The notes under the pieces: generated by a model
What the model was told of the DNA's origin: nothing
Databases searched by the model: none
What the model saw: the letters and a program-made list of their open reading frames with translations, nothing else
Made by a program: the position numbers and the translations under genes
In this document: one piece after another, positions 7,131-11,232 of the stretch
Position numbering within the stretch: the first letter of the stretch is position 1
Layout of the letters: each line of letters starts with the position of its first letter
DNA from: a virus
IMG/VR virus record: IMGVR_UViG_3300038548_000181
Span: 1-40,419 of that record
Strand: one strand, 5' to 3'
Length of the DNA: 40,419 nucleotides

Positions 7131-7139
7131 TGCTATAAT
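7131..7139 (+). promoter_or_regulatory. Extended -10 promoter of the structured RNA locus
   Basis: TGCTATAAT is a perfect extended -10 element. No good -35 is visible, as is acceptable for extended -10 promoters. It is located 28 bases after the tRNA-Leu and would start transcription near 7146 into the structured region. Confidence 0.6.
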
Positions 7140-7140
7140 A

Positions 7141-7288
7141 CTGAGGTAGGCGTTTGGTAGCGCTTTAGAGAAGATTAAAGATTAGGGTCATAATGTAAGC
7201 TGATTTTAAAGAGCAAGGTTTAATACTACCAAAGTTCTTTAATCTCAACCCCAAGTCTTTAGGGTCAGTTTTCATTATGGCCTTTTTT
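7141..7288 (+). ncRNA. Structured RNA segment with crossing helices
   Basis: Three perfect or near-perfect long-range pairings are visible: TTTGGTAG (7153) with CTACCAAA (7226), GATTAAAGA (7173) with TCTTTAATC (7236), and GGTCATAATG (7186) with CATTATGGCC (7273). They cross one another, so they form a pseudoknot or alternate states. The last helix is followed by TTTTTT, like a terminator. No protein frame fits. It probably belongs to the same RNA locus as the modules at 7386-7786. Confidence 0.6.
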
Positions 7289-7364
7289 GTGCCTGTAGTT
7301 TAATTTGGTTAAAACAGTTGCCTCATAAGCTTCAGATCAGGGTTCAAATCCCGCAGGCGCACCA
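7289..7364 (+). tRNA. Degenerate tRNA-like gene, anticodon CAU (Met or Ile2)
   Basis: The ends fit a tRNA: acceptor GTGCCTG/CAGGCGC, discriminator A, encoded CCA, D stem GTTT/AAAC, loop CTCATAA with anticodon CAT. But the anticodon stem GTTGC/GCTTC has two T-T mismatches, and the T arm GGG-TTCAAAT-CCC has only three good pairs and is one base out of register with the acceptor. It may be a decayed tRNA or a tRNA-like domain of the surrounding RNA. The type of tRNA is a guess. Confidence 0.5.
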
Positions 7365-7385
7365 TTTCTAAAGGCGTTATGTAGT

Positions 7386-7525
7386 CTGTTTTAATGAGAG
7401 TAAAGCTATGCGGAAGCGTCCGACCGGTCATAAAACCGGCGGGTAGCGCCAAGCACAGTGCTGGTGAGCCACAGGCTTTAAATAAGTGGATTTGACTTCC
7501 CCAGCCAGCACTCTCTTTAAAGCAG
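7386..7525 (+). ncRNA. Structured RNA module B
   Basis: A 16-base arm (7386-7401) pairs with 7510-7525 with one mismatch and one G-T. Inside are the GC-rich hairpin CCGACCGGT/ACCGGCGG (7418-7443) and a second helix AGTGCTGG (7457) with CCAGCACT (7505). No coding frame or ribosome site is present. It is the first of three consecutive stem-closed modules. Confidence 0.6.
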
Positions 7526-7533
7526 ATTGCAGT

Positions 7534-7655
7534 AGTACGAATATGTGGTGGTGTTACCAGCTTGGCAACCAAGAAATAGTCTTAACGAGCTAGACCCTCG
7601 ATACTTGTTGTCACTGCCGTTAGTAAGCTGGCTAGCGCCCCTTCATATTCGTATT
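7534..7655 (+). ncRNA. Structured RNA module C, relative of element E1
   Basis: AGTACGAATATG (7534-7545) pairs with CATATTCGTATT (7644-7655), eleven Watson-Crick pairs plus one G-T. Inside, CCAGCTT pairs with AAGCTGG, CTTGG with CCAAG and CGAG with CTCG. The outer 24 bases on the left and 22 on the right are identical to those of E1 (2906-3026) read on the other strand; the interior is unrelated. The shared arms suggest a conserved docking or processing stem. Confidence 0.6.
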
Positions 7656-7664
7656 ACACACAGT

Positions 7665-7786
7665 CTATATAACAGGGGTGTGGCCAAACCTCTTAGGCAA
7701 GCCCTCTTATCACTGGCAACTATAGCTCTTGCTATTTGATAATGGAAAGAATGCTGGTATCGAATCCAGTCGCCCTTGTTATATAG
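7665..7786 (+). ncRNA. Structured RNA module D
   Basis: The 16-base arm CTATATAACAGGGGTG pairs with CGCCCTTGTTATATAG (7771-7786) apart from G-T and one end pair. Inside, CTGG-TATCGAAT-CCAG (7754-7769) is a T-arm-like hairpin. Module lengths B, C and D are similar (about 120-140 nt), which hints at a repeated architecture. No gene lies between here and the Phd-like gene at 7896. Confidence 0.6.
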
Positions 7787-7895
7787 ATTGTACCCCTCCA
7801 CGTTTACCCAGTTACATTAATTGCAGAAAGTAGTTGCATATCTTTTTATTTACATTACTATAGCGCATGTAGCACAATATATTAACGAGGGAAGT

Positions 7896-10788: not shown

Positions 10789-11232
10789 ATGAATATGAAA
10801 ACTTGGAACAATACAGATAAGTCAGAATGGGCAAGCGGCGAGTGGGTGGATGAGCCAGATAAGGCGCAATGGGTATCAAGCAACCTTGATTGCTTGATTG
10901 TGCGTGGGCCTATGGGCGCTCTGTGTGGCTATGTCGGAGTTCCTGAATCGCACCCTATGTTTGAGAAAGATTATAACTCAGCAGATGTTGAGGTTCATGG
11001 GGGGCTGACTTTTGCTAACAGATGCTCCCCAAGCCCAGAGGGTGATCACAAAGGTATTTGTCATGTCGAAGAGGGCGCGGCTAATGAGACTGTGTGGTGG
11101 TTAGGGTTCGACTGCGGCCATGCGTGGGATGTAATACCTAGATATGATTTCACTTTTGGCTCAGATGAAACGTACAGAAATTTTAGCTATGTTAAAAAGG
11201 AAGTTGAGGGCCTTGCTAGACAGCTAGCATAA
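10789..11232 (+). CDS. Conserved phage hypothetical protein, 147 aa
   Basis: Start after AACGAGGGTAGAGAA. The sequence is rich in Trp, Gly and Asp, with blocks I recognise as recurring in phage accessory genes: HGGLTFANRC, WWLGFDCGHAWDVIP and a C-terminal YVKKEVEGLARQL. The His/Cys/Asp clusters (FDCGHAWD, NRCS, GICHVEE) could bind metal. The function of the family is unknown. Confidence 0.75.
   Translation: MNMKTWNNTDKSEWASGEWVDEPDKAQWVSSNLDCLIVRGPMGALCGYVGVPESHPMFEKDYNSADVEVHGGLTFANRCSPSPEGDHKGICHVEEGAANETVWWLGFDCGHAWDVIPRYDFTFGSDETYRNFSYVKKEVEGLARQLA

Follow-up and report, generated by a model that had tools for sequence, protein, structure and literature searches.

A stretch of an aquatic podovirus genome that appears to encode a large modular RNA with tRNA-like blocks

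The locus and its genome setting

The DNA analysed, hereafter the window, is IMG/VR record IMGVR_UViG_3300038548_000181 over its full 40,419 nucleotides; it is a complete genome, made up of 40.3 kb and a further terminal repeat of 127 bp. The phage is an aquatic, P22-like podovirus with a portal protein of phrog_156; the closest deposited portal was that of Pseudoalteromonas virus H6/1 (36%). Genes for tRNA-Pro and tRNA-Leu (6942−7103) lie directly ahead of the RNA locus. Just upstream of this tRNA pair, within 6780−6931, lie a near-consensus promoter (TTGACA-17-GATAAT) and, after it, an intrinsic terminator (6904−6931), perhaps a leader subject to attenuation or else a short RNA. On its 3′ side, the RNA locus is followed by a small Phd-like antitoxin gene and then by the gene for a replication protein. 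The antitoxin-like frame (7898−8060, Phd/YefM-like), which is common to the related contig L008, was named by sequence reading alone; it gave no PHROGs match, and a toxin partner was not evident.

The longest reading frames in the RNA locus were of 87 aa (antisense, TTG) and 64 aa (sense, GTG), and no counterpart of either was found in the relatives. No conserved protein gene exists in the interval, in agreement with a preliminary description that had seen no plausible protein gene at 7131−7790. Those boundaries were close, but the RNA probably extends to about 7850. The folding energy of the region corresponded to z = −8.7 for the plus strand vs −4.0 for the minus strand.

The locus is read on the plus strand and is headed by an extended −10 promoter element, TGCTATAAT (7131−7139). 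The 5′ domain (m0, 7142−7290) comprises the P1 hairpin together with three long-range helices, each crossing the others, and a terminator-like hairpin with T6. P1 (7149−7164) has the form GGCG(UUUGGUAG)CGCU, a layout kept in relatives, and its loop provides the 5′ strand of PK1 (7153−7160), which pairs over 8 bp with CUACCAAA at 7226−7233. P2 joins AGAUUAAAGA (7172−7181) to UCUUUAAUCU (7236−7245) over 10 bp and crosses both PK1 and P3. P3 is the 28-bp terminator-like hairpin (12+16 bp), with its 5′ strands at 7184−7195 and 7197−7212 and its 3′ strands at 7256−7271 and 7273−7284, running into T6 (7283−7288); within this 3′ portion (7256−7288), GGCCTTTTTTGTG is kept in relatives. Since the strand order for PK1, P2 and P3 is a1-a2-a3-b1-b2-b3, each helix crosses the other two. 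The extended −10 element and the three crossing helices had all been proposed in the preliminary description and were recovered in the same places. The predicted stability of P3 is −31.6 kcal/mol vs −7.2 for P2 and −5.7 for PK1. By our estimate, a single chain would hardly fit both P2 and a complete P3, with loops of ~10 and 23 nt set against a 28-bp rod. The T6 after P3 resembles an intrinsic terminator, and a separate short RNA of ~145 nt (7146−7290) could be the main product.

The slot after m0 holds a tRNA(CAU) at 7288−7363, identified by ARAGORN and by Rfam RF00005 (47 bits against a cut-off of 29). It had been described as degenerate, and mismatches are present in the anticodon and T stems, but it scores as a tRNA with both programs. 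In L037 and L008, a stem-closed non-tRNA module occupies this slot. The slot is followed by a conserved linker, TTTCTAAAG (7365−7373), which is identical or similar in most relatives. Module 1 (7380−7531) is closed by a 15-bp stem (7380−7394/7517−7531) with the inward extension GAGAGT/ACTCTC; its 3′ part resembles an acceptor stem plus T-arm, with the loop UUUGACU at about 7491−7497. The 14-bp closing stem of module 2 (7532−7657), 7532−7545/7644−7657, is continued by UGG-UGGUG/CGCC-CCUU. Module 3 (7660−7791) has the longest stem, 21 bp (7660−7680/7771−7791), around an interior with a D-stem-like GCC/GGC and a T-arm-like CUGGUAUCGAAUCCAG (7754−7769). Three stem-closed modules had been anticipated at these places, and their closing stems exceed chance: among 300 dinucleotide-shuffled versions of the region, none had at least two such stems. 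The probable 3′ end lies at 7801−7850, where GTTTACCCA, common to L008, is accompanied by a weak hairpin and a T-run; L008 has a clear terminator at the equivalent position.

A stand-alone fourth module, missed by the preliminary description, was found on the minus strand at 2897−3035, in the leader of a leftward operon. It shares with module 2 an identical 25-nt 5′ strand (3004−3028) and 22-nt 3′ strand (2908−2929) around a different interior, which contains two T-arms (2972−2988 and 2932−2948).

Relatives in other phages and conservation of base pairing

The first lead to relatives was internal, as the module-2 stem recurs in the fourth module; it is also present in L006 and L008 with other interiors. 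Contig L037 was fetched by replication-protein alignment and carries the whole array, with 71% identity to window 7146−7306. The conserved end of P3, GGCCTTTTTTGTGYCTG, fetched L050, L064, L095, L133, L138 and L140 alongside numerous terminators matched by chance; most of the 100 matches to it were ordinary terminators. By blastn from L037 and from the contigs matched, the Vibrio phages NF, phiV208, H2, Seahorse, 1.122, 1.116, 1.003 and VnaS-L3 were reached, along with Xanthomonas phage Kintu, Stenotrophomonas phages CUB19, S72 and SOVA965, and Acinetobacter phage Silvergun. In almost all of these named phages, the locus had been left unannotated by the depositors, often with tRNAs inside or adjoining it; Silvergun has small hypothetical genes there. 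In the Vibrio phages, the 5′ domain opens unannotated gaps of 600−900 nt. Relatives in numerous unrelated phages infecting Vibrio and other hosts have thus gone unannotated, so the ~700-base stretch, which reads as the gene for a large folded RNA of tRNA-like blocks, looks like a member of an overlooked class of giant phage RNA, comparable to GOLLD and ROOL though distinct from both.

Most relatives have a sigma70-type promoter with a −10 element ending 4−8 nt before P1. In the window, Seahorse, H2 and 1.116 the slot holds at least one tRNA. In L037, L008, L064, L095 and NF it is filled by a module, tRNA-like or otherwise, with a closing stem like GUGYCUG/CAGRCAC. The linker after the slot resembles CCTTTCTAAAG across the family, and modules then follow. 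In the window's group these have the ends AGU...AUU with a frequent G.U pair. The Vibrio group has a long downstream domain of ~73% DNA identity between phages, which is unlike the window's modules. Through the 5′ domain, slot and linker, the link between the window's group and the NF-type Vibrio phages appears firm, while the more divergent Vibrio members were placed mainly by their downstream domain. The putative link to the Stenotrophomonas/Xanthomonas group is weaker and is based on a GUAGGCG hairpin with its loop pairing downstream, together with a 48-nt T-arm block that is 94% identical between L037 and Kintu. The genes neighbouring the locus vary among carriers (methylase, phosphatase, terminase, chaperone, endolysin), and six of nine records, some of them fragments, matched neither the portal nor the terminase of the window.

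The interiors of the modules are exchanged between phages and are often tRNA-like, and the closing stems are conserved and covary, as supported by computation. Outside the called tRNAs, 17 T-arm motifs were counted vs 0.5 expected, with none antisense; two to four of the 17 may be uncalled ordinary tRNAs. The same closing stem was seen with a new interior both within one genome and across contigs, and whole tRNAs were found enclosed: a tRNA-His within a closed module of L095, and a tRNA-Cys plus another tRNA match within a single closed module of L037. For the module-1 closing stem, 6 of 20 pairs were double-changed in four phages, and for module 2, 10 of 20 in nine elements; slid controls collapsed in both cases. 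Part of module 1 (7459−7524) is 81% identical to L037, and a homologue of module 3 was not found in this analysis.

Computation also supported selection for base pairing in the P1/PK1/P2/P3 domain. A covariance model trained on eight other phages, with the window left out, matched window 7142−7289 with 87.6 bits (E = 2.1e-17); the same model also matched phiV208, L064, Seahorse and 1.116 with E = 4e-9 to 0.02, all E-values being from a short calibration. PK1 and P2 were present in 10 of 10 phages, with 150 of 150 cells paired and double-sided changes in 15 of 15 counted pairs (PK1, 7/7 core pairs; P2, 8/8 counted pairs), in a modest number of divergent sequences, some of them related. As the PK1 and P2 segments for this count had been selected manually because they were complementary, two less biased tests followed. 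In the first, each leader paired better with its own P3 loop than with the loops of other phages (0 of 20000 permutations). The second used L157 and L158, two contigs that a later pattern search had retrieved through P3, with no part played by PK1 or P2. Both have PK1 as GTGGTAG/CTACCAC, and their P2 strands are GGCAAAAGTA/TGCTTTTGCC and GGAAAAAGTA/TGCTTTTTCC, a compensatory change between near-identical contigs. Covariation was seen among relatives in P3 as well, although in the fetched contigs P3 is partly conserved by construction because the search pattern fixed its 3′ end. Covariation among homologues, which the preliminary description had put forward as a check, was strong.

Other searches returned little. 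With the window locus as the blastn query against phages, modules 1−3 gave no match, and the whole query gave, among the matches listed, only the preceding tRNAs. The exact module-1 pattern was found in none of the viral contigs. The contigs retrieved with a gapped stem pattern (L011−L019) were chance matches, as were three stem-pattern matches in genome contigs, two of which lay in the same kind of coding sequence. A look-alike stem at L026 12815−12944 was rejected for its position inside a 150-aa gene. The same contig has identical 17-bp hairpins at 11133−11237 and 11649−11753, 516 bp apart, which suggests a local duplication. A match in Klebsiella phage BUCT610 fell within annotated genes and is not included in the family. 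Neither is a 212-nt noncoding element of L024 (2834−3045, minus strand), which has only the AGU/AUU stem ends in common with the family. This element has a 21-bp closing stem and a hammerhead ribozyme core (Rfam HH9, 26.4 bits, E = 5e-4, under the cut-off), and its phage contig is related to the window via the replication protein.

Comparison with known RNA families

An Rfam scan of the window locus (E ≤ 10) gave tRNAs and chance matches only. The GOLLD model (RF02032) matched none of 16 records, the window and 15 relatives, at E ≤ 10. The ROOL model (RF03087) likewise matched none of the 16, nor the control genomes, and cmscan with all of Rfam agreed. The preliminary reading of a giant structured RNA beside tRNAs, GOLLD- or ROOL-like in setting and possibly of a new class, is supported by the covariation, and GOLLD or ROOL membership is unsupported. 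The locus resembles GOLLD in several ways: the RNA is large and noncoding, comes from a phage, has tRNAs inside or next to it, is less conserved in its 5′ part and has crossing or kissing helices. A long noncoding stretch near tRNAs, putatively transcribed, was found in the window and in many relatives. The locus differs from GOLLD in being a chain of stem-closed tRNA-like modules. ROOL is also a large ornate phage RNA near tRNAs, of 500−800 nt, and here too the difference lies in the unmatched model.

The start of the Stenotrophomonas/Xanthomonas gaps was matched by Proteo-phage-1 (RF03044) with 34.7, 16.8 and 13.2 bits, under the gathering cut-off of 42, the best being that of Stenotrophomonas phage SOVA965 (34.7 bits). 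These sub-threshold matches stand at the start of gaps of 600−900 nt in L142, L148 and L150, from Xanthomonas and Stenotrophomonas phages; the window had no match at E ≤ 10. These loci have GUAGGCG-type starts, a looser version of the 5′ domain, and the model, of 82 nt, would cover just the first part of such an RNA. From these matches, Proteo-phage-1 may correspond to the 5′ end of a giant RNA.

Bacterial Y RNAs (YrlA) and other tRNA mimics carry a tRNA-like domain with a T-arm inside a longer stem. The Rfam scans gave no Y RNA match, and the window locus differs in having several modules in series. Vibrio phage ICP1 produces a noncoding RNA of ~800 nt that is its most abundant transcript and has no reading frame (PMC7567579). 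In our set this stem-rich stretch is L156 20090−21112 (minus strand), assigned here to no family. It resembles the present RNAs as a large noncoding RNA of a Vibrio phage, but the 5′ domain is absent, both by the 5′-domain model, which gave no match, and by reading of the sequence. No published description of the RNA family was found in the open-access literature; one may exist elsewhere.

Possible function of the RNA

On balance, we favour as probable the reading of the locus as a member of a family of large (about 0.6−1.1 kb) trans-acting phage RNAs that act as an exchangeable tRNA-like decoy scaffold. That a real structured RNA family is involved is very likely, and a role in trans is likely; the decoy mechanism itself is put forward tentatively. 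A product that acts in trans and is passed between phage backbones is favoured because the promoter adjoins P1 in most members, the neighbouring genes differ and six of nine records, some of them fragments, match neither the window's portal nor its terminase. Transcription would start at 7146 and continue beyond the T6 of P3 as far as about 7850. Since PK1 and P2 compete with the full P3 rod, only part of the transcripts would end at 7290. The exact sequence conservation of the closing stems and the frequent G.U pair near their end suggest that these stems are recognised at the RNA level. With conserved frames and swapped tRNA-like interiors, the arrangement resembles a fast-changing display on a slow scaffold, as might be expected of bait for tRNA-binding proteins. 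The scaffold could present its tRNA-like domains to maturation or modification enzymes, or to host tRNA-cleaving defence nucleases, and so serve as an exchangeable decoy during infection.

The alternative that survives best, rather unlikely in our judgement, is a GOLLD- or ROOL-like assembly made of RNA only. A single chain would not easily accommodate PK1, P2 and the full 28-bp P3 together, and some of these crossing helices would then connect separate copies. The size, the tRNA neighbourhood, the conserved mutually crossing helices and a 5′ part more variable than the 3′ part among the Vibrio members are consistent with this, and there is precedent in GOLLD and ROOL, where inter-chain contacts were found by covariation (PMC12286853). 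However, alternative conformers of a single chain explain the crossing equally well, the modules vary freely on single-strand linkers, and the GOLLD and ROOL models found no match. A bolder combination, which we regard as a long shot, is a widespread RNA class that assembles via inter-chain helices and shows fast-exchanged tRNA mimics, some of them real tRNAs, as bait against tRNA-targeting immunity.

An unlikely alternative to the trans-acting scaffold is a cis-acting leader in which P2/PK1 and P3 form an antiterminator/terminator switch controlling read-through into the tRNA slot and the downstream genes, the rest being a long leader. In every member, P3 and its T-run are shaped like an intrinsic terminator, the predicted stability of P3 far exceeds that of P2 and PK1, and the minus-strand module sits in the leader of another operon. 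On the other hand, the downstream genes vary from phage to phage, the L008 locus is closed by its own terminator, and conservation reaches 400−700 nt past P3.

The T-arms and acceptor-like stems of the modules, the tandem tRNA-like blocks and the two genuine tRNAs ahead of the locus could also be read as a decaying tRNA cluster, with the modules being tRNA pseudogenes caught in inverted repeats. This is very unlikely, as the closing stems and PK1/P2 are maintained by compensatory change, which decay does not yield. Most improbable is a DNA-level cassette, such as an inverted-repeat mobile element or integron-like site, for although one genome has identical 25-nt stem ends around different interiors, the conserved G.U positions of the stems (G.U or G-C) would be mismatches in DNA, the tRNA-like motifs are strand-specific (17 vs 0), and no recombinase was found among the window proteins scanned. 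Readings as a retron, a type III antitoxin RNA mimic or attC were dropped, with no supporting gene or feature seen.

Giant structured RNAs of phages fall into only a handful of known classes, and the RNA family described here adds one. It occurs in cultured phages (e.g. Vibrio phages NF, phiV208 and Seahorse), which makes deletion, sequencing and imaging feasible. With its exchangeable tRNA-like modules, the family points to a connection, open to testing, between large phage RNAs and their adjoining tRNA islands, and the 600−900-nt blanks in many deposited phage genomes are indicated to be RNA genes.

Further noncoding elements were noted in the window. A 43-nt block with a CCGCC/GGCGG inverted repeat lies 3′ of the antitoxin-like gene (8054−8096); it is 98% identical in L008, compared with ~70−75% for the flanking DNA, and its core was absent from every other viral contig searched. 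A leader repeat beginning TAACGAGGG directly precedes the start codon in many genes, on either strand (2228−2247, 6523−6541, 9147−9165, 10256−10275 and 10773−10796) and is perhaps a shared translation or regulatory signal.
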